A DNA stretch of 26,090 nt from IMG/VR virus record IMGVR_UViG_3300025697_001088, positions 1 through 26,090 of that record; one strand, given 5' to 3'. Numbering within the stretch: position 1 is the first letter of the stretch; every line of letters begins with the position of its first letter. The position numbers were made by a program, and so were the translations under genes. A model generated the notes under the pieces. The model was given only the letters and a program-made list of their open reading frames with translations. It was not told the origin of the DNA and did no database searches. Of this stretch, positions 4,710 to 26,090 are shown piece after piece. Origin of the DNA: a virus.

Positions 4710-4892
4710 TCAAGGCTGATCGCTGTTGTGCTTTTTCACTTGATTTTGTAACTTATCCGAATGGTGCCTGTTTTTCGATAAATCTCTTAAATGCTTATCC
4801 CATCGTTCAGATATATTAATAGCACTCCCAATATAAATTCGTTCAGGTTTAATCTTACTTTGTATTTGATATATTCCAGATTGTCTTTTCAT
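4710..4892 (-). pseudogene. Truncated GIY-YIG homing endonuclease
   Basis: The 60-residue product has the two defining motifs of a GIY-YIG nuclease: SGIYQI near residue 5 and YIGSAINISERW near residues 20-31, including the conserved Arg and a following H..L......H...LQ helix. Intact GIY-YIG domains run to about 90 residues and need a catalytic Glu in a later helix. Here a TGA stop comes right after KKHNSDQP, so the Glu and any DNA-binding tail are absent. No continuation is visible in the other frames before the next gene. The start ATG overlaps the upstream stop by 4 bases (ATGA), so it is still in the operon. Such enzymes spread as free-standing homing genes in phage genomes. I infer a decayed or remnant copy, probably inactive as a nuclease. 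Confidence 0.75.
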
Positions 4893-7838: not shown

Positions 7839-10565
7839 CTATTTTGTTATACTAATTTTATCGTTAATCATTATAAATTTATTACCCCTCATGTTGATCG
7901 TCTGGACAGAAGTAGTAAAGCTCTCTTGCGACCCATAACTTGTTCCTTCTGAATTTGTGGCATAAGCCCGGATATAATAAAGAGTATTACTACTCAACCA
8001 CGACAAGACACAAGTAAATGCCCCTGTGCCACTTCCCGCAGGTACTATATTGTCGGATGTGGTGGGAGTTTCTGACGTTGAATAACATACGCCCCTAGTC
8101 GTCACAGAGCTTCCTCCATCGCCTGTTACGTTACCGCCCACGGCAGCATTAACAGAAGTATAAGTAGGTGTAGCCGTTGTTACGGTAGGAGCTGTTACTG
8201 CAACTTGATTTGATATTGTAATCACCTCGTCATCATATACCTCTGAACCATCAGATGCAGTGGCTCTAACAGTAACCGTGCCATCAGTGACAGCCGTAAT
8301 TGTACTGTCAGCTATAGTAGCAGAACCAGTTCCATTAGTTACTGTCCACACATGATTAGGATTTGAGGCATTTGTGGGAAGAGTAGCTGACTGCATTACC
8401 AATGAGCCATTATCTACAGTAATAGTAGTGGCTGCTCCGGCTCCACTTACCGTTATATTGGTAACAAGGATTCCAGCATCTTCAGTAACAGTACCATCTC
8501 CAAAAATTACCTTTGACGTAAAAGGAGTCAGGGTAAAAGTTGTAACAGTGGTCCCATCTATGTCCTCCATTACTCCCGTTGACGGTGTAGCTGTAAAATT
8601 TTTATCAACAAATGTATCATTGTACTTAAAGAAGAGTTCGTCCATACTCGAAGCTGAATAGTCTGAGGCTGTGGAGCTCTCTCCATAGTCGCCATCTCCA
8701 TCAAATTTTGATTCAAAACCAGCCAGATTATAGTAATTATACCCACCTCCCCATGCTTCGTCTATATTCATTATATATGAGTCAGTATTACCATCAATTA
8801 CTATCGGGTAGGCATGTTTATTATCATCGATAGAACCCTGCCTATATGTCTGGTCAGAGTAAGGATCTGTAAATAGAGGCAAGTCTGCTGCTCCAAGCTT
8901 TGAAGCCAAGGTCATTGTAAAGGCACGATCATAGCTACGATTCATATTATTTGTAAAATTACCTGTCACTAAAATATTATCATTAATAACATGGCCTCTT
9001 GCTCTGCCATCAACCGGAGCACTCTCAGAAAATACCAAGATACCCATTGCAGCATTAAAAACTGTATTATTAGTTACTGTAGCTTCCTGACATGAATTAA
9101 TAAATAAGCCGTGTCCTCCACAAAAAGCAATTGAGTTGCTGTCTATGGTAACAAGATCATCTCCATCTGTATATATACCATTTGCTCCGGTCCAATCTTC
9201 TTCGTCAACACCATTTCCAAGGCCGTAGGGTTGAGATGTTACGTGCATTATAATATTGTGCTTGATCTCTTTACCATGTTCACGACCTCTGTAAGAATAC
9301 ATTCCTCCACCATCTCCGGCATTAAGACAAATAGAGTCTAGGAAGTTCCATGAAATATCCATATCCTCTCCGGCCCACCTGATACCGTCATAACCACAAT
9401 GGGTAATTCGGCTCCTGGTTATTTGTGAATAATCAGCTTCAAGATGTACTCCTATCATATTATCCCATCCTGGCTTTCCTAAACCTATAGAATAACCTGA
9501 CCTTGTAATTGTATCATTACTAATAGTAGTATAGCTACAGTCATCTGCAAATATTCCAATATCATTCGAGTCACTTATATTGCTTTCATCTATGGTAATA
9601 TGGGTGGATGAGCTATTTGCTAATACACCGTACTCCCCTGAGTATTGAATTTCACAATTATTAACATCAACATAATCACAACCCGTTATTGTGAGGTTAG
9701 CATAATTAGCTCCTTCTATTCTTAAATTTTCAATTATGATATAATCAACATTATCCACTATGACTGCTTCGTCCCTTGATGCCGATGCAATTACATGGTT
9801 TGTTGGGCTATCAGCACAATAGATATAAATTACATCATCAATTATTGCCCAATCTCCATCCTGTACAAGAAAGTCAATGTGATTTTGTAGAAAGTATCCA
9901 TAGCCGTCTGGTGGTTGATCCATACCACTAAATGTTATTACAGTTCCACTAATACCACTTATTTGTCCTACTCCATTTCCTCCTTGATGAATACGAGCCA
10001 CTATTTCAGCCTCAACACCAGCATCACCTAAGTCAGAAGGAAAACCTAAAGCACCCATCTCATCATCATCCACAGTCGTAGATGACCAACTTTCTCCTAT
10101 GGGGACATCACTAGGCCAATTATAATACTGAGACATATAAGGGAACCTTCCTTTGGGTCTGTTTTCATCATCGAAGACAAATACATTAGGATTAGTTTCT
10201 GATGTAATCGCTTTATGGTATATGTTGCTACCATCTGATGTCCAGCTAGTCAATACCGTGAATCCTGATATTGTAGGGAGAGCACCTGTGCCATAGTCCC
10301 CATAATAAATTTCATTGCCACTTGTCCCTGAATTATCAATAGTTAATGTTTCATACCAAACATCACCACGTTTGAATAATACACTATCACCGGGAGAGGG
10401 GGCCTGAGTATTAACATAAGTTATTGTTGCCCATGCCAAAGCAGTAGTAAGTCCTGAGTCACCGTTATCGCCATCAGAGCTGCTAACATAATAGGTCTCT
10501 GCATTGGCTATCGAGCCTATAAACAGCAATAATATAAATAAGTATCTTTTCATAATTTTATTCAT
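7839..10565 (-). CDS. Secreted right-handed beta-helix protein with Ig-like and Fn3-like C-terminal domains
   Basis: I place the start at the ATG at 10565, which lies 7 bases after GGAGGG (10573-10578); a GTG at 10580 is also in frame. The product of 908 residues begins with a clear Sec-type signal, MNKIMKRYLFILLLFIG, ending SIANA before ETYYV. Then comes TYYVSSSDGDNGDSGLT and GDSVLFKRGDVWYETL, the usual entry of parallel beta-helix (pectate-lyase-like) proteins, and a long run of N-x-I/V-x-N rungs (roughly residues 240-640: NCEIQYSGEYGV, NSIAFCGGHGLFI, NTVFNAAMGI). After that are a bacterial Ig-like domain (about 710-800; VTVRATASDGS) and a Bacteroidota Fn3-like domain (TTRGVCYSTSETPTTSDN, YYIRAYATNSEGTSYG). 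Likely a glycan-binding or depolymerase tailspike, though a signal peptide is unexpected for one. Confidence 0.75.
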   Translation of the reverse strand: MNKIMKRYLFILLLFIGSIANAETYYVSSSDGDNGDSGLTTALAWATITYVNTQAPSPGDSVLFKRGDVWYETLTIDNSGTSGNEIYYGDYGTGALPTISGFTVLTSWTSDGSNIYHKAITSETNPNVFVFDDENRPKGRFPYMSQYYNWPSDVPIGESWSSTTVDDDEMGALGFPSDLGDAGVEAEIVARIHQGGNGVGQISGISGTVITFSGMDQPPDGYGYFLQNHIDFLVQDGDWAIIDDVIYIYCADSPTNHVIASASRDEAVIVDNVDYIIIENLRIEGANYANLTITGCDYVDVNNCEIQYSGEYGVLANSSSTHITIDESNISDSNDIGIFADDCSYTTISNDTITRSGYSIGLGKPGWDNMIGVHLEADYSQITRSRITHCGYDGIRWAGEDMDISWNFLDSICLNAGDGGGMYSYRGREHGKEIKHNIIMHVTSQPYGLGNGVDEEDWTGANGIYTDGDDLVTIDSNSIAFCGGHGLFINSCQEATVTNNTVFNAAMGILVFSESAPVDGRARGHVINDNILVTGNFTNNMNRSYDRAFTMTLASKLGAADLPLFTDPYSDQTYRQGSIDDNKHAYPIVIDGNTDSYIMNIDEAWGGGYNYYNLAGFESKFDGDGDYGESSTASDYSASSMDELFFKYNDTFVDKNFTATPSTGVMEDIDGTTVTTFTLTPFTSKVIFGDGTVTEDAGILVTNITVSGAGAATTITVDNGSLVMQSATLPTNASNPNHVWTVTNGTGSATIADSTITAVTDGTVTVRATASDGSEVYDDEVITISNQVAVTAPTVTTATPTYTSVNAAVGGNVTGDGGSSVTTRGVCYSTSETPTTSDNIVPAGSGTGAFTCVLSWLSSNTLYYIRAYATNSEGTSYGSQESFTTSVQTINMRGNKFIMINDKISITK
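10524..10540. repeat. 17-bp direct repeat, copy 1 (in signal-peptide codons of the beta-helix gene)
   Basis: CAGCAATAATATAAATA on the + strand is identical to 11266-11282. Both copies code for the hydrophobic core of the signal peptide (LFILLL) in consecutive genes and lie in the same reading register, so part of the identity could be shared coding constraint. Confidence 0.85.
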
Positions 10566-11292
10566 AAGGTGTCCCTCCACTTGCTAACCATGACCTTTCA
10601 GCACTTGATATTGCTTTTCCCCAAACACCTACTTTCTTAATACGACCACCTAAAAACTCATTACCCGTATCCCCTCCAATAAACATAGTAGAAGGATTAA
10701 TACTTGTATATGCGTCCTCGTTTGCACTGCCAGCCGCAATATTATTCCTATAGAAAGTAATCACCTCTGCATCCTTTACCATGATAACAGAGTACCACGT
10801 ACTTGCGGTCCACGTTACTGTAGTCCCTTCAGTAGCCACACCACCTATATACCAACGCATTTGATAGTCTGGTGGGGTATCATCACCTAAGTAGAACGCC
10901 CAACCGTTATAAGTACCCATAATGTTCTTCGCTGCTGCCGTAGAAACATCTGTTAAGTAGATAAAGGCAGAGACCGTAAAATCACCTGCTCTAGTAACAG
11001 CCCAATCAGCATGATCAGGCAAGGTGATAAATTCATCTACAGCATCACAAGCAAATCCATCGGTGCTATAAGTACCATTTGTAGCCGTTGAGTTATGAGC
11101 ACTCTCAGTATCTACAATAGTTCCACTCTCTTCATGAATATCATACCATGATATTAGACTTGTCTGTATAGTAGCAGGAGCAGATGATCCACTTGCAGTT
11201 CTCTGACTTGAAATAATTGAAGTAAATAGATCCTGACCGCTTAACGAGATAGTCAGAAATATAGCCAGCAATAATATAAATAGTTTTTTCAT
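10558..11292 (-). CDS. Secreted LamG / concanavalin A-like lectin domain protein
   Basis: The 244-residue product starts at the ATG at 11292, which overlaps the previous TGA (ATGA) and lies 8 bases after GGAGGG at 11301-11306. A longer ORF reaches back to 11316 but lacks such a site. It opens with a Sec-type signal peptide (MKKLFILLLAIFLTISLSGQ). The rest is one LamG/laminin-G-like jelly roll: SLISWYDIHEESGTIVDT, GFACDAVDEFITLPDHADW, FTVSAFIYLTDVS, WYSVIMVKDAEVITFYRN, FIGGDTGNEFLGGRIKKVGVW, ending GGTPYE. These domains bind glycans or cap larger adhesins. It sits between a fibre protein and a beta-helix protein that also carry signal peptides. Its last codons GGA GGG ACA form the ribosome-binding site of the next gene. 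Role inferred: glycan-binding accessory of the adsorption cassette. Confidence 0.75.
   Translation of the reverse strand: MKKLFILLLAIFLTISLSGQDLFTSIISSQRTASGSSAPATIQTSLISWYDIHEESGTIVDTESAHNSTATNGTYSTDGFACDAVDEFITLPDHADWAVTRAGDFTVSAFIYLTDVSTAAAKNIMGTYNGWAFYLGDDTPPDYQMRWYIGGVATEGTTVTWTASTWYSVIMVKDAEVITFYRNNIAAGSANEDAYTSINPSTMFIGGDTGNEFLGGRIKKVGVWGKAISSAERSWLASGGTPYE
10573..10578 (-). promoter_or_regulatory. Ribosome-binding site inside the end of the LamG gene
   Basis: GGAGGG lies 7 bases before the ATG at 10565 and decides that start over the GTG at 10580. It is also the Gly-Gly codon pair of the upstream protein's C-terminal GGTPYE. Confidence 0.7.
11266..11282. repeat. 17-bp direct repeat, copy 2 (in signal-peptide codons of the LamG gene)
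   Basis: Identical to 10524-10540 (CAGCAATAATATAAATA on the + strand), 742 bases apart. Recombination between the copies would fuse the LamG signal peptide to the beta-helix protein and delete the LamG gene. Confidence 0.85.
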
Positions 11293-17274: not shown

Positions 17275-18654
17275 TTAGCTTGCTTCTAAGAGAACAAACT
17301 GGTTTCCTCCACGGAAATGTGCACCTACATGGCATCTCTGATAAGTATTCCTACTATCAAATTGAGTAACCTTCAGTCCTTCTCCTGCTCCACCTACCTG
17401 CCATACTTCCATTCTACGGCTGTATTTTCCAAGGGCACGATATCTTGTGCCAATAGAATCAACCATATTACCGGAAACAGGGTCTTTCTTCTTATTGATA
17501 GGCATAAACACACCAAGATTACGTGCGCTGTAACCGTCTGCTCCGTAGAGCTTCTTGTTATTAAATACACCCATTCTTTTTAGTAAGAAAGTCCTTTCTG
17601 ATTTACACAGATAAGTAAAGTTCACCGATGCACTAAGAGCATCGTTCTTGTTGAACAACACATCGTTAACAGCCTGTTTTGCAAACTGTATGTTGGTGTT
17701 AGCGAAGTATGTTTTTAATGAGTTCTCAATATCCTGATGAAGAGCTATTCCAAGTAGCCCGAGGATATAATTACCTGCAAACTCCCTGTCGAGGGTGTTA
17801 TCCATGGTATCAAACTCATCAACATCAAATGCTCCTGATGTAGAAGACTGCTCGTTACCTACTCTCCTGCAATAAGGAATAAGACCTTCTGTGGTCTTGA
17901 TTGCACCATAAGTAGGATCAGTAATTGCAGTGTTAGTTGTCCTTTTACCCCAAAGCAGAGCACCGTCAATACGGAGGGCCATACGATAATCAATGTCGAT
18001 CTGCCCTTTGAAATAGTATGCTGGAAGTGCCTGTCCTTTACTGGTAATAGTGATCCAATCCTGATTTACCATCTCAGTTCCGGTTACTCCAATACTTTCC
18101 TTGATGATCTGTGCGTCATTATCATACTCCCATGTACCTGATACGGCTCCTGTTGGCTGTCCTGATGCCTCGGCATAAGCGTTGGAGAAGATAACAAGCT
18201 CCATCCCTGCTGTAAGTGCAGGAAATTGATCTGTTACCTCATTAGGAGTTACCGTTACTACGGGTGCGCCCGGAACAGTGATATCAATCCCATCGGGAAG
18301 AACAGTTCCAACAACTTCATTAGGGAACATAATTTGGTCATTCTCCCTTAAATAGAAATTGTTGTTTACGTCAAGATCAGTTGGATCAAGCGTGAATTGA
18401 ATAACTGCGCCCACTGCGGGTTGTATTACTATATCAAGTACGTGAATTACCTCATGGATATGATTTTCTTCATAATGTCCATAAGTGTCATTTGCAACCG
18501 GCTTCTCAAATCCCATGGATCTGATTAGCTGGAAAAAGGATGCTCCCTGATCTCCAAACCTGCTAAATAGCACGTTGAGTTTTTCCGGTTTGTGAATATC
18601 AAATCCGGATACTATGTCAGAGGAATATATTTGAGCAATAGCTTCTGGTCCCAT
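17275..18654 (-). CDS. Major capsid protein
   Basis: This 459-residue protein sits exactly where a tailed-phage major capsid protein is expected: after the portal and scaffold genes. The N-terminus (MGPEAIAQIYSSDIVSGFD, FFQLIRSMGFEKPVANDTYGHYEENHI) matches the start of crAss-like and other Bacteroidota phage capsid proteins, as I remember them, and the beta-rich middle with alternating DPTDL..N..FYLRENDQIMFPN and 'GMELVIFSNAYAEASGQPTG' fits an HK97-fold core with an insertion. It ends with NQFVLLEAS. No N-terminal scaffold region or protease site is obvious. It would form the icosahedral shell. The identification is by context and pattern; the fold cannot be proved by eye. Confidence 0.8.
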   Translation of the reverse strand: MGPEAIAQIYSSDIVSGFDIHKPEKLNVLFSRFGDQGASFFQLIRSMGFEKPVANDTYGHYEENHIHEVIHVLDIVIQPAVGAVIQFTLDPTDLDVNNNFYLRENDQIMFPNEVVGTVLPDGIDITVPGAPVVTVTPNEVTDQFPALTAGMELVIFSNAYAEASGQPTGAVSGTWEYDNDAQIIKESIGVTGTEMVNQDWITITSKGQALPAYYFKGQIDIDYRMALRIDGALLWGKRTTNTAITDPTYGAIKTTEGLIPYCRRVGNEQSSTSGAFDVDEFDTMDNTLDREFAGNYILGLLGIALHQDIENSLKTYFANTNIQFAKQAVNDVLFNKNDALSASVNFTYLCKSERTFLLKRMGVFNNKKLYGADGYSARNLGVFMPINKKKDPVSGNMVDSIGTRYRALGKYSRRMEVWQVGGAGEGLKVTQFDSRNTYQRCHVGAHFRGGNQFVLLEAS

Positions 18655-18711: not shown

Positions 18712-19938
18712 TTAACGATTCGACTCCATATCGAATGCTTTGTCTCTCTGTTGTTCTTCCGTTAAAGGCTCTCCTATTACGTCTGGCTGGTCTTTATTGG
18801 AAGGTGAAGGATTATGGTAAACTTTAAGGTATTCTTCATCCGTCATACTACGGGCACGCTCAAATACGGTGTGCACGATAGATGGGAGATTGTCATTAAT
18901 GTAACGACTCCTCATAAATGTAGCAACGCTAGTGACATTTGCTTCATTAACTTCCATTTGGTTGCTAACTGCGTAATCAAAAGCATCTTTCATAATAGCT
19001 TTCTGTGCCTCCTCCGGTATTACGAAGTTGACAATAGGCTCTTTAGAGTCCTTGATAGGGATCGGTAGTTTTGCAAAGACCTCTCCAATTTTTTCATTTA
19101 CCTTAGCCCATGATTCCTTCTGAGTCTTTTCAATCTCAGGAGTCCATTTCTTACTTGCGCCCGGCATTTCTTCCGGCTCTTCTGGCATTTTGATCTTCTC
19201 TTTGAGAGATAACAGGCTCGTCTTAGCTTTCTTTGCGTCTGAGGATGCGTCCATCATTCGCATGTCATAGCTGTGTCTAGCACTGTCAGCCTCTTCCTGA
19301 GTAATCTCTTCTGCCTCAACTTTCTTAGGGTCAAACTTACTTTTGTCCAAGTTGTATTTCGTCTCGAAATACGCACGTACTTTTGGTTTGTCGTTTGCCC
19401 ATTCAGGATTTTCAACAATATGATTCAGCACCAAAGCATCCATGGTATCCATGTTTGCAATATCGGTAGATGAATTTAACTGATTGAAAACATCAAAATT
19501 ACTGATCTTTGTTTCCCTCGAAAACTCATTAAACTTAGCTATGTCGTCACTGGCAAAGCTGTGTTTGGGCTTAATGCCTAGCTTAGTTGTAAGGTCCAAG
19601 TTCGCCTCTCTCAGGGTCTCCAGTTCCTTTAGTCTCTCAGGTATCTTTGCATTTTTAAAATCCTCAACTGTCTGAAACTGATCTCCGAACATCTCGTTCA
19701 GCATGCCAGCTTTGATAGTCTCTGGATTTAGTACGTCCTTTTTTTCGTCCGGCTTAATCTCATCCGGTTTAATCTCATCGGGCTTGATTCCGTCCGGCTT
19801 GATGTCATCAGGTTTTATGTCGTCTGGTTTAATTCCCAAATTCCCTTCCGGACCCTTGACTTTATTTATAATTTCTGCCGTTAACTCCTCATTACCGAGG
19901 ATTGAGTCAAATTCTGCATTACTGCCTGGTTCTGCCAT
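18712..19938 (-). CDS. Scaffold / capsid assembly protein with an IKPDx repeat linker
   Basis: This 408-residue, strongly charged protein (many Glu, Lys, Asp) lies between the portal and the major capsid genes, the usual place of a scaffold. Residues 36-65 are six copies of IKPDx (IKPDDIKPDDIKPDG...), a Pro-rich extended linker. Residues 70-250 are Lys/Glu-rich and likely helical (LKELETLREANLDLTTKL, EEITQEEADSARHSYDMRM, KKAKTSLLSLKEKIKMPE). Residues 290-360 are an additional helical block (EEAQKAIMKDAFDYAVSN, MRSRYINDNLPSIVHTVFERA). There is no catalytic motif of a capsid protease. It would be expected to guide capsid assembly and then leave or be trapped. Function inferred from position and composition. 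Confidence 0.65.
   Translation of the reverse strand: MAEPGSNAEFDSILGNEELTAEIINKVKGPEGNLGIKPDDIKPDDIKPDGIKPDEIKPDEIKPDEKKDVLNPETIKAGMLNEMFGDQFQTVEDFKNAKIPERLKELETLREANLDLTTKLGIKPKHSFASDDIAKFNEFSRETKISNFDVFNQLNSSTDIANMDTMDALVLNHIVENPEWANDKPKVRAYFETKYNLDKSKFDPKKVEAEEITQEEADSARHSYDMRMMDASSDAKKAKTSLLSLKEKIKMPEEPEEMPGASKKWTPEIEKTQKESWAKVNEKIGEVFAKLPIPIKDSKEPIVNFVIPEEAQKAIMKDAFDYAVSNQMEVNEANVTSVATFMRSRYINDNLPSIVHTVFERARSMTDEEYLKVYHNPSPSNKDQPDVIGEPLTEEQQRDKAFDMESNR
19744..19833 (-). repeat. Six tandem 15-bp units encoding IKPDx
   Basis: Six in-frame 15-base units (consensus ATNAARCCNGAYGAN on the minus strand) give IKPDD, IKPDD, IKPDG, IKPDE, IKPDE, IKPDE. Codons vary among units (AAA/AAG, CCA/CCT/CCG/CCC, GAC/GAT), so the repeat is kept at protein level and is not a recent slippage product. 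Copy number could vary between relatives. Confidence 0.85.
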
Positions 19939-19978: not shown

Positions 19979-22288
19979 TTAAGCAGTAGCCTGTGCCGGT
20001 TGTGTGGCTCCTGCTGTCTTCGCTACATCGGTAAGGATTCCCATTTGAGTTTCTTTTCCCAATTTTTCCATTTCCCGGTTATGTTCTTTTTCTTTATATT
20101 TATCATCAATCGCTGCCTCAGCCTCGTAAAGCTCAATTGCCAACCTTTTTTCCAACTCAGCCTCATCTGCCTTTAGCTTACTCTTTAGCTTGTCAGATTC
20201 TTGTTGTCGCTTGCCATCGAGTTGCATATTTTCTCTTTGGAGTTTAAGCTGTTTTTCCTCGTTCTTCTGTATCCTGTAATTCAACATTGCCTCTGCAACT
20301 TTTAAAGACCCGGACTCAAGTAACCTCTCGATCATCAAGAAGTCTGGAAGAGAAATCCCTTTCTGCCCATCCTTACCTGGTTTCATCGCATTTATCGCTG
20401 CCTGTTTTATTGAATCCTTCCTCTCCTTGGTAGGACGTGCCTCGTACTTGATAGAATAATTCGCATCTACCGTATCCGCTCCTACGCTTATAATCTGCAC
20501 TCCCTGCTTCCCTATTACTGGCATATACCCCTTATAAGCCTCTTTGTCGTGTTTGATAAGTAGTTGAAGCCTTAGAGATATATTCTTAGCTGTTTTCTCT
20601 TTAATGGTGACGTATGCGCTATAAATAGGTCTGAGAGCATTGTTTGTTGCTGCAAGGGCAAGCTCTGAGCCTGCTACTGATTGTTCCGGGTTAGGACTTG
20701 AGGCATCTGCAATCTGGTTTATTCCAGTAAGCTCCCTTATTGCCTCTGTGTTAATCTTAAATACAGTTACAAATTCAGCAAGCTGTGTCCCTATCCCTCC
20801 TTCAAGCTCCTGTATCGGTCTGTATCCTCCCGGTGTATTTGGAATACCCTTATGTGTTGTGGCTTTGAAAATAAGATTACCTGTCTGTTGTCGTATCTTC
20901 AATAACTCCAATGGCTCCATCTTATTCCCTCCCAGCTTCATGTTCTGCAATGCTGTGAACTCAATAGCAACTCCCGAGGGTGCAGCTTTAGCAATAGCAT
21001 TTTGAAGTCTATAAAAGGCAAGTGCCATCTGGTGTAGATGAGGCTCTGCAAGGTCAACGAGCGATCTGTAAGGAAGTTTATAGAGGTGATATGATAGTTC
21101 TACTTCTTTTTTGCCCGGGCGAGGGATGTCGTACTGCATTCCAAAATCATAAGAAGTGTCCGTTCCTACTATCCACTTGCACTTGTAAACAGTTTTAATA
21201 TCATACTTTTTTGTTTTCCTAGTCTCCGTGTCATATACTTTCCCCCACTTCTCGTTGTATGAGAGCTCATTTCCATATTTTGTTTTTCTCTTGGTGCGAT
21301 ACTCGCTATTTACGCTTTTCCATTCTGCGTCAACGACATTTACAAGGAAGCTATCATAGTTCCCAATGTGTGTTTCTTCATCAAATTCAAAATTTCCACT
21401 AGAGACTACATTCCCGTTTAGTCCATCATAAGTGCCTGCAAGTTCCCTGAGCATACTCTCTTCAATACCGGGAATCAGACTGCGAAGTTCTGATATAGGA
21501 ACTTTTATTATTTCTCCAGCATACTCCATGTTTCGGTGATCCCATGACTTAGAATACTGCCCTATGAACATTTCAGGGTCAACATATCTTACACGTACTT
21601 TCTTGGTGTACTGGTCAACAAAATCTTTCGTTGCGAGGCAATTTATAACACAAGCATCCCGAATAAGTTTCTTCTTAATCTCTTTCCAATCCGATATGTA
21701 GAATGAATAATCGAGTCCCTGCTCTATCTCTATCTCCTTCGCCAGTTTAAATCCTCCGGCTCCCTCATAAAGATTCAACTCTTCCATTGAGTCAGGAACA
21801 TAGTCAGCCGATTTGCCTAATCCAAGCCCTTCCTCTATCTGCTCCAATGTATCACGAAACTTCATTTTAAATGCCATGGCTAACTTAGCCTCTTCTTTCT
21901 CTTCTGATGCGGTGGGGTCAACGGCTGTGGCAACAACCTGGTGATCTGTCTGCTCCATCATGCCCTCTACTACCCTTAAAAACTTAGGCATAACTGACAT
22001 TACATCCCAATTGATGTTCATATATCCAGTTACCTCTGTCTTGGCAGAGCTATCATCCATTAATATTTTCTGGTATTGCAGTACGTTCTGAGTCCCATTG
22101 GCTAAATCTCTGAGAGACTGAAATTGGCTTACTGTGCTATATGGGATTGCTGTATGACCTTGCCTCCATTTCGAATACATGGCCTGACACCACTTCATTC
22201 CCCAATCTTCCTTTTTTTCTAACGGGTTAATGTCATCCTTTGGGAAGGGGTACGCTCCTTTATTGTATTTTTCTAAAGAGATAGGCAT
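19979..22288 (-). CDS. Portal protein
   Basis: This 769-residue protein follows the terminase large subunit (27-base gap), the standard place for the portal. The N-terminus YPFPKDDINPLEKKEDWGMKW (in parts), then KWRQGHTAIPYSTVSQFQSLRDLANGTQ, resembles crAss-like portal proteins (YPFP..., 'YANG.Q...KY') as I remember them. The middle is a mixed alpha/beta core with LTGINQIADASSPNPEQSVAGSELALAATN, a typical portal helix region. Residues about 680-750 form a very charged coiled coil (KQLKLQRENMQLDGKRQQ, DKLKSKLKADEAELEKRLA). The last residues are GATQPAQATA. It would form the dodecameric vertex that the terminase docks on, and would nucleate capsid assembly. Size is at the high end of portals, as in crAss-like phages. 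Confidence 0.85.
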   Translation of the reverse strand: MPISLEKYNKGAYPFPKDDINPLEKKEDWGMKWCQAMYSKWRQGHTAIPYSTVSQFQSLRDLANGTQNVLQYQKILMDDSSAKTEVTGYMNINWDVMSVMPKFLRVVEGMMEQTDHQVVATAVDPTASEEKEEAKLAMAFKMKFRDTLEQIEEGLGLGKSADYVPDSMEELNLYEGAGGFKLAKEIEIEQGLDYSFYISDWKEIKKKLIRDACVINCLATKDFVDQYTKKVRVRYVDPEMFIGQYSKSWDHRNMEYAGEIIKVPISELRSLIPGIEESMLRELAGTYDGLNGNVVSSGNFEFDEETHIGNYDSFLVNVVDAEWKSVNSEYRTKRKTKYGNELSYNEKWGKVYDTETRKTKKYDIKTVYKCKWIVGTDTSYDFGMQYDIPRPGKKEVELSYHLYKLPYRSLVDLAEPHLHQMALAFYRLQNAIAKAAPSGVAIEFTALQNMKLGGNKMEPLELLKIRQQTGNLIFKATTHKGIPNTPGGYRPIQELEGGIGTQLAEFVTVFKINTEAIRELTGINQIADASSPNPEQSVAGSELALAATNNALRPIYSAYVTIKEKTAKNISLRLQLLIKHDKEAYKGYMPVIGKQGVQIISVGADTVDANYSIKYEARPTKERKDSIKQAAINAMKPGKDGQKGISLPDFLMIERLLESGSLKVAEAMLNYRIQKNEEKQLKLQRENMQLDGKRQQESDKLKSKLKADEAELEKRLAIELYEAEAAIDDKYKEKEHNREMEKLGKETQMGILTDVAKTAGATQPAQATA

Positions 22289-22314: not shown

Positions 22315-24561
22315 TTAAATTTTTCTCTTTGAAGAATAGGTATGTTGCACCAGAAAACTATCCAAACTGTATTCAGCTTCTTCAAATTCCTCTGCCTCAT
22401 CATATACGCTATGAGTCCCAAGTAGTGCATACCCTCCGGCTGTAAAGAGGTCATAATTAGTCATGTCCTCCGGACCGTCAATATCCCTACATTCCTCCAA
22501 TATCTCAATATGAGTTTCTTCATCTGCCTCATTCTCTATCCATGTCATCCATTCTGTGAAGATATCCTGCTTTAACTTCTCTGAACTAGAGCCTCCAGGA
22601 GTCTTACTGAACTCGAATGTTTTAGGGTCAATCTTATATCGGAGATAGCCCGCATATCCTCTATCTGTGAAGTAATCCCAGAGGTACGGAACATTGATCT
22701 CCGGAAACATCTTAACTCCATAATAGATGCACATCATAAGCATATCCTCTCCATACACGGCCTTATCAAACATCCTCACAGCATAGGTGCATACAAATTT
22801 CCTTTTCATGGAAAAATCACCATCCTTTAACTGCCCTTTTCGAATTACGGCTCCACCTCCTTTTGATTTCCTATTTCCTGCTGTCTTATTGAACTTAAAT
22901 GGGTCGCCTCCTGCTACTCCCCAATGGGCATTCCCGGGCATCCAACACTCAGCGTCATCACTCCAATATTTTCTGTTTGCCTCAACCTCATTAAATTGGT
23001 GACTGACTCTGAATTTCCCATTCTTGTTCAATACAAACTCAACCTTAGTGTCTTTCTCATTATCCTTCCATGCAAAATTCCCTCTGGCAACAGGCTGTTT
23101 TGTTAATTCCATATCATCAATATATCCTTCCAGCTTCAGCATATTAAACCCTGATGACTTCTGAGATGTTCTAAAGCACTCTGCAAGGCGCATAGGATAT
23201 AGTCTTATTTCACCAGAGAGAGAATCTTGATTACTCAAATATCCCTTTCTCCTATTAAGTAAGAACTCTCTTGCTCCAATCTTATATCCTGTATAATTTG
23301 CCTGTGCTTTGGTAGGATTGCCTACTATGCTAATTCCATATTGGTCAATGAATCCTTTAAGTCCCTCATAGGCAGGAATAAATAATACTGCAAGCCCGGA
23401 TGGTGTCTGCCCGTTTGGTGTGCGCTCATAATAATCACTAAGTTTACATAGAGCCTTAAAGTCCTTACCCCCACCTTTCTCCATCTCCCCTACTGTAGAT
23501 GTTTTTACTGTAAATCCGATTATATCAGCTCCATCTACCAAGCATTCTTTTACTACCTCATGTCGGGTTAAACAACTGACTCCTTTTTTTAACCGGCCAA
23601 TCTCATCATCGTGGTGAAAATATAATTTTGTTCCCTCATAAGCTGTCTCATCTGCGTTCCCAAAATCAACTCCTGACTCTAATCCTAATTCTGCCATCAT
23701 TAGAGCACCCTTAGAGCTTAATCTCTTAGCAGGAGGGGTAAATGATAGTTCTGTCTTTGGAGAGGTAGAACCCTCATAATTCGGTTTAAAGAAGAATGGT
23801 AATTTTTTCCATGGAGCAACCAAGTGCCGGAGGAAGCATATCTTGGACTTATCATCATTCATGGATTGAATACCACCTCTGGCATTTATGGTCCGGCTTA
23901 TGATCTCATAATTGATACACTCTCCCTTGTATGTAGCACCCTCTCTACGATGTTTAGGATAGATAAATCCATAAAACAATCTCTTCTTAAAATCATACCA
24001 ATCACAATTGCCCTTATCGTCCCTTTTTGCAAAACCCTCTTCATCTACCCTTGGAGAAATAGTCTCTGTTTGTATTTTACGAGCGAATAAGAAGAATTTT
24101 CTGTCTCGTTCTTTATAGTCCGGCAATCCAATATCAATATGCCACCATGCACAATAGAAATAATGCCATCCATCAATATATGTCGGTACTCCATTGTTGT
24201 AAAACCAATAGCCATAAAGCCTTCGTTTCCATTGTAGCTTTATGAACTCAATCTCTTCTGCATATATGTCTTGGTGTACTTCTAACTCCTCCCATATCTC
24301 ATCAAGGGTCTCAAATTTACGCTGTAATTCTTTTAATCTTCTGAGAAGCTTGGGAGGCTTAAACATCTGCTTCTCTGCCGGTATTCCCCAATTATCTATG
24401 AGATGAGGCTCTGGGGGGAGAGGAAGTTTTATCTCAATAGGAATAAGGTCCTTGTCGTCAATATTAACCCAAATGCTTTTAGGGGCATCCTGATATCCGG
24501 CAAGTATCTGTGGACTCACCTCTTTGTGATAACGCTTAATTAACGAGAGGCTGTTCCCCAT
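22315..24561 (-). CDS. terL: Terminase large subunit (DNA packaging ATPase-nuclease)
   Basis: I take the ATG at 24561 (748 residues; a TTG at 24579 would add six). Numbering is from that longer form. The ATPase half shows a variant Walker A-like region, KHRREGATYKG (209-219), a Walker B-like KLYFHHDDE (318-326) and a coupling-motif candidate TVKTSTVGEM (357-366). The nuclease half has the first acidic residue in WGVAGGDPF (D559), a central FPEINVPYLWDYF, and a closing NYDLFTAGGYAL (D710) of the RNase H-like fold. The protein drives genomic DNA into the prohead and cuts concatemers. It overlaps the upstream gene by 26 bases and precedes the portal. The Walker A lysine position is occupied by Ala, which is unusual. 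The function is still well supported by the order of motifs and context. Confidence 0.9.
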   Translation of the reverse strand: MGNSLSLIKRYHKEVSPQILAGYQDAPKSIWVNIDDKDLIPIEIKLPLPPEPHLIDNWGIPAEKQMFKPPKLLRRLKELQRKFETLDEIWEELEVHQDIYAEEIEFIKLQWKRRLYGYWFYNNGVPTYIDGWHYFYCAWWHIDIGLPDYKERDRKFFLFARKIQTETISPRVDEEGFAKRDDKGNCDWYDFKKRLFYGFIYPKHRREGATYKGECINYEIISRTINARGGIQSMNDDKSKICFLRHLVAPWKKLPFFFKPNYEGSTSPKTELSFTPPAKRLSSKGALMMAELGLESGVDFGNADETAYEGTKLYFHHDDEIGRLKKGVSCLTRHEVVKECLVDGADIIGFTVKTSTVGEMEKGGGKDFKALCKLSDYYERTPNGQTPSGLAVLFIPAYEGLKGFIDQYGISIVGNPTKAQANYTGYKIGAREFLLNRRKGYLSNQDSLSGEIRLYPMRLAECFRTSQKSSGFNMLKLEGYIDDMELTKQPVARGNFAWKDNEKDTKVEFVLNKNGKFRVSHQFNEVEANRKYWSDDAECWMPGNAHWGVAGGDPFKFNKTAGNRKSKGGGAVIRKGQLKDGDFSMKRKFVCTYAVRMFDKAVYGEDMLMMCIYYGVKMFPEINVPYLWDYFTDRGYAGYLRYKIDPKTFEFSKTPGGSSSEKLKQDIFTEWMTWIENEADEETHIEILEECRDIDGPEDMTNYDLFTAGGYALLGTHSVYDEAEEFEEAEYSLDSFLVQHTYSSKRKI

Positions 24562-25168
24562 CTTGTTGTTTTTTAGCAATGTCTTCCGGACGTAAATTTA
24601 GTCTCTCATCTTCCATATACCTAAGCATTGCGTCTTTTAAGTAGGGATTATTGTCATGATTCAACATATCCAATAGGTTCTCTTCAAGGTCTGCTTGGAT
24701 AGATTTCATCTCCTTCAGGTTCTTTGTCTCTCCTTCAGCTATCTCCAACATGAGGTTGTAATAGCTTGTCTCCAAGGTGATCTGATATGCATATTTGTAA
24801 TTCCTATGCATGCGCACGAACTCTATAATCTTGGCATTTACTATTTTATTATTCCCTCTCAAAAAATCCTCAACCGGAGGAGAGAAGTCCCCCCCTGCAA
24901 TAACCTCAAAGCCGGAATCATGGCATGCCTCTAATTTCCTTTTCAATATGTCCGTGGTGTATTTCTTACGGTACGGAGACATGCGATCATAAACACAAAA
25001 GATATACTGCAGAAGTTTTGTATTGTCAATACCTACTCCCGGATCCTTGCGAAAATCTTTATGCCTTGCTAGTTCTTTGTAATGCTTTAAAATACTCGCT
25101 CCCTCCGGTACCTTGGTAGGATCGAAAAGCATCTGTGTGAACTCTTTTTGGTGAAATGACGAGATCAT
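24536..25168 (-). CDS. Protein in the terminase small-subunit position
   Basis: This 210-residue protein is largely helical and charged (ASILKHYKELARHKDFRK, MSPYRKKYTTDILKRKLEACHDSGFEV, EIAEGETKNLKEMKSIQADLEENLLDM), with no enzyme motif. It ends within the terminase large-subunit gene (26-base overlap with the ATG I chose there), so the two are coupled. Terminase small subunits have this place and a helical composition, and recognise the packaging site. I do not see a clear helix-turn-helix. The mid-part FLRGNNKIVNAKIIEFVRMHRNYKYAYQ could be the oligomer core. It starts with 4 bases overlap (ATGA-type) to the co-chaperonin-like gene. The small-terminase call is positional only. Confidence 0.45.
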   Translation of the reverse strand: MISSFHQKEFTQMLFDPTKVPEGASILKHYKELARHKDFRKDPGVGIDNTKLLQYIFCVYDRMSPYRKKYTTDILKRKLEACHDSGFEVIAGGDFSPPVEDFLRGNNKIVNAKIIEFVRMHRNYKYAYQITLETSYYNLMLEIAEGETKNLKEMKSIQADLEENLLDMLNHDNNPYLKDAMLRYMEDERLNLRPEDIAKKQQDGEQPLVN

Positions 25169-25863
25169 GTTTTTGCTAGTATATGTCTTCTCTGAACTCT
25201 GAAATATGGTTTGCCTCCGTCAATCTTCGCATGTAAGCTGTACTGGATAAGCACATCGGTAACTCTCCTCATAACAACAATATCTCCCTCTGCGATGTTC
25301 ACCCCCTTGTCGGAAGCTCCCTCATCAACATACTCCTCATTCGGAATACCTACATATCTGACCTTGCCATAAACAACATCAATATTACTCGGTTTTGTGA
25401 ATACCACAGGCTCTAATCCAAGCTTCTTCATCCTATCCTCATTCCTTATAAGTTCTGGATTATCGTGTGGCTCAATCAGGCAGTATCCATTACAGGGAAT
25501 GATCTTTTCTCCTCTGATGAGGCAATAGATATTCTGATAGGTTATGAACACATATCGCTCTCCGTTCTCAATGAAATACTTATGATTTTCTTTTTTGAAG
25601 GCATTGACCACTGCTAAGTAATAAACGATAACCTTATCGCCTATTTGCGTTTCCATTGGTGTCAACCATGGCAAACCATCATTAGCCACCCCTGTGTACC
25701 TCAAATGGCTCGGGAGTCCTACTACTTCTCCCGATACTGTTACGTGTTTTTCGCCATCATAGCTGGTATCAATATACAATTCGCCTCCATTATTGAGTTT
25801 TATACTGTCGTTCTCCGCATCTAAGCGGATGAGCACGTGATTGCCGAATGTTTTCTTGTTCAT
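25165..25863 (-). CDS. Tandem GroES-like (co-chaperonin) protein
   Basis: This 232-residue protein can be read as two GroES/Cpn10-like domains. Domain 1 (about 8-118): HVLIRLDAENDSIKLNNGGELYI, then VSGEVVGLP, then IGDKVIVYYLAVVNA and a closing ERYVFITYQNIYCLI. Domain 2 (about 121-232): IIPCNGYCLIEPHD, then VYGKVRYVGIPN, KGVNIAEGDIVVMRR, KPYFRVQRRHILA. Each follows the GroES order 'first strand V..., GG-type loop, .GEV..VG, .GD.V..., closing .....IL.'. Single-domain GroES has about 97 residues, so this is a duplicated form with long insertions in place of the mobile loop. T4 gp31 is a known phage co-chaperonin that helps fold its capsid protein; a like role here is an inference. It overlaps both neighbours by 4 bases. 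Confidence 0.65.
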   Translation of the reverse strand: MNKKTFGNHVLIRLDAENDSIKLNNGGELYIDTSYDGEKHVTVSGEVVGLPSHLRYTGVANDGLPWLTPMETQIGDKVIVYYLAVVNAFKKENHKYFIENGERYVFITYQNIYCLIRGEKIIPCNGYCLIEPHDNPELIRNEDRMKKLGLEPVVFTKPSNIDVVYGKVRYVGIPNEEYVDEGASDKGVNIAEGDIVVMRRVTDVLIQYSLHAKIDGGKPYFRVQRRHILAKT

Positions 25864-26090
25864 ATTCTGCCTGTTTGTTCTGCTTTTAATTTATCTGCCT
25901 TTGCCTGGTAGTCCTTGTTTTTAACGCATGTTAATTTGCCATCAATCTCCACAAACTTAATTTCCCCCCTCTTCTCCATTACCTCAAACTTGTGTTTCAT
26001 TGCTCTCTTATCTTTTCGAGATAATGAGTTCCACATCGGTACTTCGTGTTGATGTAGATTGATATTCTGCCCGTGGTAATTTATGATTGT
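25860..26090 (-). CDS. C-terminal part of a small unknown protein (runs off right edge)
   Basis: The minus frame is open from base 26090 to a TGA at 25860-25862, giving the last 76 residues. It is basic and helical in look (PMWNSLSRKDKRAMKHKFEV, VMEKRGEIKFVEIDGKLTCV, DYQAKADKLKAEQTGRI). It overlaps the ATG of the tandem GroES-like gene (ATGA), so both are in one transcript. An internal ATG at residue 19 would give a shorter protein, but the frame stays open to the edge. No family recognised; possibly a small DNA-binding or structural helper. Confidence 0.6.
   Translation of the reverse strand, partial: TIINYHGQNINLHQHEVPMWNSLSRKDKRAMKHKFEVMEKRGEIKFVEIDGKLTCVKNKDYQAKADKLKAEQTGRI

Follow-up and report, generated by a model that had tools for sequence, protein, structure and literature searches.

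What is the function of a double GroES-like protein that a virus encodes directly beside its terminase genes? This question is raised by an open reading frame close to the end of a linear virus record of 26,090 bases, the whole of which was analyzed here and is referred to as the window. A previous sequence-only reading had proposed that the product of this frame holds two Cpn10-like domains with enlarged loops and that it acts as a phage co-chaperonin in the manner of T4 gp31. The frame is indeed a gene on the minus strand, encoding 232 amino acids that are conserved in 30 further distinct IMG/VR relatives aligned with it and on a contig of a metagenome-assembled genome (MAG). Its place beside the terminase was also borne out, as it is followed by a conserved 210-aa gene, the gene of the terminase large subunit (TerL) and the portal gene:

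25860..26090, minus strand: conserved small open reading frame upstream of the tandem gene, open at the window end, with an ATGA overlap with the tandem gene
25165..25863, minus strand: tandem Cpn10 (GroES-like) protein, 232 amino acids, ATG start (open reading frame, AlphaFold2 model, PDB match and Pfam Cpn10 matches in the family)
24536..25168, minus strand: conserved 210-aa gene directly downstream of the tandem gene, candidate small terminase subunit by position
22315..24579, minus strand: TerL (phrog_6681, E 8e-74)
19979..22288, minus strand: portal protein (phrog_6547, E 1.4e-69)
17275..18654, minus strand: virion structural protein of 459 amino acids, probably the major capsid protein (phrog_13704, E 8.5e-22; capsid role from position)

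The tandem gene shares 4-nt ATGA overlaps with both the preceding gene (25860-25863) and the following gene (25165-25168), and the three genes are thus probably translated in series. The 210-aa gene gave no Pfam match and no credible PHROG match; it lies on the same strand within 2.1 kb downstream of the tandem gene in 23 of 28 loci and was not found in the other five, two of which end within 1.1 kb. Judging from its position, the 459-aa probable capsid protein is a plausible folding client of the tandem protein. Additional genes in the window comprise a 408-aa acidic protein between the portal and capsid genes (18712-19938), which carries a short repeat of the KPDDIKPDEI type near its start and is scaffold-like by position, a short open reading frame (4710-4892) whose start resembles GIY-YIG endonucleases by eye and which overlaps the next structural gene by 4 nt, and a secreted-looking protein of 913 amino acids (7839-10580) with repeats resembling a parallel beta helix, by eye a possible tail spike or depolymerase. 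In two related loci (L010:2498-7994 and L020:1288-8001), the tandem gene, the 210-aa gene and TerL are separated by blocks of other genes, which by eye resemble methyltransferases and glycosyltransferases; these insertions make the terminase region look like a hotspot for cargo genes.

The tandem protein consists of two Cpn10 (GroES) domains in one chain, each half of which matches Cpn10 by both profile and fold:

25510..25863, minus strand: N-terminal Cpn10 domain D1, residues 1-118 (VIA and hhalign)
25165..25509, minus strand: C-terminal Cpn10 domain D2, residues 119-232, plus stop codon (folded alone and hhalign)

The AlphaFold2 model of the whole protein, with a 31-row alignment as input, reached a pLDDT of 90.4 and a pTM of 0.84. 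When it was compared to the PDB with Foldseek, 7ekq_R ranked first over the whole length (E 1e-6, TMt 0.65), followed by GroES and Cpn10 chains, and VIA-align superposed 7ekq_R on residues 1-232 of the model with a Z score of 11.7 (180 residues aligned, rmsd 5.7). This chain is a tandem-size component of the Chlamydomonas chloroplast co-chaperonin-ClpP complex; its length (194) and the portion of PMC8889267 covered here point to CPN20. D1 (approximately residues 1-119) aligned to single-domain GroES/Cpn10 chains with VIA Z scores of 8.0-9.7, compared to 6.3 for the best non-Cpn10 row, and to gp31 (1g31_A) with 7.9. D2 folded alone with a pLDDT of 87.5 in AlphaFold2 and found Cpn10 in Foldseek (E 4.7e-5); co-chaperonin chains filled the first 16 of its VIA rows (Z 6.5-9.3), with a Z score of 5.8 for the row that followed, and gp31 scored 6.5. 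In the predicted monomer, neither half therefore has a fold unrelated to the Cpn10 barrel.

Profile comparison led to the same assignment. Using an alignment of E. coli GroES and 14 phage Cpn10s as the hhalign reference, we obtained E values of 1.9e-7 for D1 (probability 93.7) and 1.7e-7 for D2, while the two domains matched each other with E 3e-5; the best E values among 60 column shuffles each were 0.033 (D1), 0.0024 (D2) and 0.016 (D1 versus D2). The window protein by itself gave no Pfam match even at E<=10. Within the family, 20 of the 31 members gave a Pfam Cpn10 match at E<=0.1, the lowest E value being 4.9e-9, and in one record (G014, locus L060) Pfam Cpn10 matched both halves of a single open reading frame, with 22.2 and 12.6 bits. 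A phmmer search against PDB sequences returned only chance matches (MCM21, E 0.02), and the A1 profile performed no better; these matches were rejected because the fold and the Cpn10 profiles disagree with them.

The protein belongs to a family that is conserved across phages upstream of the terminase. A single-protein scan of IMG/VR with the window protein matched only a contig bearing an identical copy, and a tblastn search with the window protein and its relative L059 against 50,697 phage records found nothing. In total, 39 loci were reached through TerL and then by alignment, from which 31 distinct sequences were aligned, including the window and partial copies; another relative lies on a 72.7-kb contig (C255) that was assigned to a Prolixibacteraceae MAG. 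Named phages were connected with the family through TerL, Elemovirus gp30 and hhalign: family members of 180-200 amino acids adjoin terL in Callevirus (Pervagoviridae), Baltivirus (Pachyviridae), Elemovirus, Panino and a Manatee Spring phage. As the alignments of the window family and of the named phages matched with a probability of 98.2 (E 3.9e-14), the window protein and those of the Cellulophaga, Flavobacterium and Maribacter phages are, by sequence profile, one family. The named members include gp089 of Cellulophaga phage phi38:1, gp096 of Cellulophaga phage phi18:3, gp30 of Elemovirus and CDS0088 of Maribacter phage Panino. All four lie beside terL in genomes that also encode a single Cpn10, and they are shorter than the window protein and have a smaller roof insertion. 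The phi18:3 protein, a 200-residue 'Chaperonin cpn10', was also the best viral match. In Gundel_1 (Pachyviridae), neither a tandem nor a single Cpn10 was found by the A2 search, which likewise missed the tandem in W05 and W02.

The named relatives with a recorded host infect Flavobacteriaceae; together with the Prolixibacteraceae MAG contig, this suggests that the hosts of the family are probably Bacteroidota. In the records covered here, the named members are labelled only 'cpn10', 'co-chaperonin GroES' or 'hypothetical protein', with the two domains unmentioned. The covered text of PMC8776804 lists a 'chaperonin cpn10', which may be either the single or the tandem gene, among the core proteins of Pervagoviridae, and a proteomic study of phi38:1 (PMC13288928) reports GroEL among the methylated phage proteins and does not name the tandem protein in the text covered here. 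Among the open-licence PMC papers searched, none came up that describes a phage Cpn10 in tandem form.

In order to bind a chaperonin, GroES uses its mobile loop, the IVL tripeptide of which contacts GroEL. The loops of the two domains are located as follows:

25756..25806, minus strand: D1 mobile-loop region, residues 20-36, with the tripeptide L29-Y30-I31 at 25771-25779
25642..25713, minus strand: enlarged D1 loop at the roof position, residues 51-74, with invariant P51, P65 and W66
25423..25458, minus strand: extra D2 helix, residues 136-147, directly before the D2 mobile loop (DSSP on models)
25381..25425, minus strand: D2 mobile-loop region, residues 147-161, with a less conserved motif

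In hhalign, the D1 loop falls opposite GG-IVL of E. coli GroES. Its tripeptide is hydrophobic at positions 29, 30 and 31 in 20, 18 and 20 of 20 close relatives, respectively, and is preceded by G26 in 18 of 18 letters among these relatives. Very similar motifs, e.g. SGNLYIP and DGGIIIP, occur in the loops of single-domain phage Cpn10s. In the model, the D1 mobile loop is below average in confidence (pLDDT 81-82), and residues 151-160 of D2 form the least confident block overall (pLDDT 60). The D2 loop is hydrophobic at positions 150, 152, 153 and 155 in 20, 15, 17 and 18 of the 20 close relatives; among distant relatives, a tripeptide is clear in some (L030, L070, L059) and was not seen in L067, L069, L071 and L072. 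The loops give no clear support to the earlier proposal that one of them perhaps serves GroEL and the other a phage client: D1 keeps a GroES-like tripeptide in nearly all close relatives, and D2 carries a looser version of it. In contrast, the enlargement of the loops was substantiated by the insertion at the D1 roof position, with its invariant P65-W66, and by the extra helix in D2. A roof hairpin is absent at the same place in the single-domain Cpn10s of phages. The same contrast exists in Arabidopsis, where, according to the covered text of PMC4242682, the Cpn20 domains possess the roof loop and their Cpn10 partners lack it.

We searched the records behind the loci for further co-chaperonins with Pfam Cpn10 and with the phage Cpn10 alignment, and based the count on the 22 records with a tandem gene that are approximately 60 kb or longer, namely 16 IMG/VR records (G001, G005, G007-G009, G011, G013-G022), the MAG contig C255 and five named phages (MW202828, Elemovirus elemoE, Panino, phi38:1 and phi18:3). 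A second Cpn10 gene is present in 17 of these 22 records, which are related rather than independent, of unproven completeness and viewed here without a random-phage comparison. The nine long records closely related to the window (G001, G005, G007, G008, G009, G011, G013, G014, G015) all have one; no convincing second Cpn10 was found in G016, G017, G018, G021 and G022. The Pfam Cpn10 search matched 17 of 25 records, but the match in G017 is the tandem itself. The second Cpn10 is single-domain in 16 of the 17 records; in G020 it is a further tandem (L077/L103) with two Pfam stretches, located immediately upstream of the other tandem gene. Records shorter than about 59.9 kb are fragments and do not enter the count; among them, G002 and G012 hold a single Cpn10, and none was found in G003, G004, G006, G010, nine other short records or the 26-kb window, itself a fragment. 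A 124-aa open reading frame overlapping a tandem start (L065:5627-6001) is possibly a diverged single Cpn10 (phrog_3188, E 0.0015; no Pfam match) and was not counted. In locus L071 (5474-6666), two different tandem Cpn10 genes of 171 and 226 amino acids lie back to back, so that a single phage has four Cpn10 domains; two Pfam Cpn10 stretches with 58.9 bits in all were found in the first of these genes.

GroEL is encoded in five of 21 records searched, from which the MAG contig C255 was excluded: G019, MW202828, elemoE, Panino and phi38:1. As a base rate, PMC5332604 gives, in the text covered, chaperonins in 7 of 2,429 reference viral genomes, a figure that does not refer to Cpn10. In most genomes, the tandem gene goes with the terminase genes, and a large distance usually separates it from the single Cpn10 gene. 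In G019 (L070), one strand carries the single Cpn10, GroEL, the tandem, two small genes, TerL and the portal gene; within L070:4197-12303, GroEL, the tandem Cpn10, a 222-aa gene, TerL and the portal gene form one operon, and the single Cpn10 gene immediately precedes GroEL.

From the fold, the conservation, the loop motif and the co-occurrence, we propose that the gene encodes a Cpn20-like phage co-chaperonin for host or phage GroEL that probably acts as part of a mixed lid with a single Cpn10; we assign this reading a probability of roughly 0.6. The tandem protein would be a lid subunit on the GroEL of the host, or on that of the phage where one is encoded, during folding of a head protein. 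As most records do not encode GroEL, the partner chaperonin would in those cases have to be the host's. What makes a mixed ring probable is the additional Cpn10, in nearly all cases with a single domain, in the genomes of most related phages; since this pair corresponds to the chloroplast arrangement, a mixed lid is proposed here as well. Three tandem chains and one single chain would add up to seven domains and match the seven-fold GroEL ring, and the enlarged roof loops may face the folding cage. The part of the gp31 analogy that stands is thus a plausible co-chaperonin role, while a simple stand-alone replacement of GroES does not agree with the second Cpn10 of most long relatives. Some findings argue against this reading: the D2 mobile loop has diverged and follows an extra helix, the window, although a fragment, holds no single Cpn10, and in most genomes the tandem gene is linked to the terminase and not to the single Cpn10. 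Moreover, the five of 22 long records without a convincing second Cpn10 imply that the mixed ring is not universal, or that the partner is host GroES or too diverged.

These five records also speak for an alternative in which the tandem protein alone would cap GroEL, with three or four chains providing six or eight domains, and the single Cpn10 would form a lid of its own, used for different clients or at a different stage of infection. The usual distance between the two genes would fit such a division, as it suggests different timing, and Cpn20 of plastids and apicoplasts works as a homo-oligomer; in the covered text of PMC3542282, apicoplast cpn20 of P. falciparum is reported to replace GroES in E. 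coli. We nevertheless consider this alternative unlikely: neither six nor eight domains would fit the seven-fold symmetry of GroEL, 17 of the 22 long records contain a second Cpn10, and the single Cpn10, GroEL and tandem genes stand together in L070.

It is improbable, in our assessment, that the Cpn10 fold has been recruited for head assembly or packaging, e.g. as a ring structure at the portal or as a partner of the terminase, and no longer serves as a GroEL lid. The position beside the 210-aa gene and TerL is constant in divergent phages, the canonical Cpn10 elsewhere in the genome could do the chaperone work, and the D2 mobile loop has diverged alongside large conserved insertions (P65-W66), all of which would suit such a change of function. 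Against it stand the GroES-like D1 tripeptide kept in nearly all close relatives and the direct linkage to GroEL in L070. Additionally, the phi18:3 record marks 12 proteins as structural by 'experimental MS/MS proteomics', a set that contains neither gp096 (the tandem) nor gp080 (the single Cpn10); this argues against a permanent part of the virion and is still compatible with a transient assembly factor.

Very improbable, finally, is a ring of tandem and single chains that caps host ClpP and shields phage proteins as in Chlamydomonas, where CPN11, CPN20 and CPN23 are described as a heterotetramer on the axial side of the chloroplast ClpP core (covered text of PMC8889267, which also cites a reference whose title states that proteolysis is inhibited), since the best PDB match, 7ekq_R, although derived from a ClpP complex, reflects which tandem co-chaperonin has a solved structure and not a common target.

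Returning to the mixed lid as the preferred reading, a more far-reaching version can be put forward only tentatively: a large group of Bacteroidota phages may have evolved a tandem-plus-single GroEL lid of its own, an asymmetric 3+1 ring of seven domains that arose independently of chloroplasts and reshapes the cage for a head protein. Some lineages would then have gone further, with two back-to-back tandems (L071) or, in five phages, a GroEL of their own. Overall, the data suggest that these phages customise the folding cage for their head proteins, and they offer a specific function for a gene that is conserved among cultured marine phages (Callevirus, Baltivirus, Elemovirus) and labelled only 'cpn10' or 'GroES'. 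In the papers covered here, tandem co-chaperonins are described from chloroplasts and apicoplasts, where the fit of a double-domain subunit to a seven-fold chaperonin is a standing question; the phage pair provides a simple, independent system in which the mixed 3+1 ring can be tested as a general answer.

Among known systems, the closest precedent is plastid Cpn20 and not T4 gp31, which the sequence-only reading had cited. In Cpn20 of plastids and apicoplasts, as in the phage protein, one chain comprises two consecutive Cpn10 domains, and the compartment or genome also provides a single-domain Cpn10 as a distinct protein. According to the covered text of PMC4242682, three Cpn20 and one Cpn10 are proposed as the dominant plastid ring; PMC3542282, in the part considered, refers to functional mixed rings containing seven Cpn10 domains, given there as a tentative solution to the symmetry mismatch. 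The CPN11/20/23 complex of Chlamydomonas would also yield seven domains if composed of one single and three tandem chains. The phage protein differs from Cpn20 in that it is phage-encoded, lies in a head and packaging operon and shares about 20% identity with 7ekq_R; as far as sequences and models tell, it also has a larger D1 roof loop, an extra D2 helix and a diverged D2 mobile loop. With T4 gp31, it shares the phage-encoded Cpn10 fold and a presumed role in folding of head proteins, but gp31 has one domain (a chain of 107 residues), whereas the phage tandem has two and is accompanied by a single Cpn10 in most long relatives. Bacterial GroES has the Cpn10 barrel in common with both halves and GG-IVL aligned with the D1 loop, in contrast to which the phage protein is tandem, diverged in its loops and phage-borne. 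Tandem Cpn10 proteins and phage co-chaperonins were each already known, and it is their combination, a tandem phage Cpn10, that is described here.
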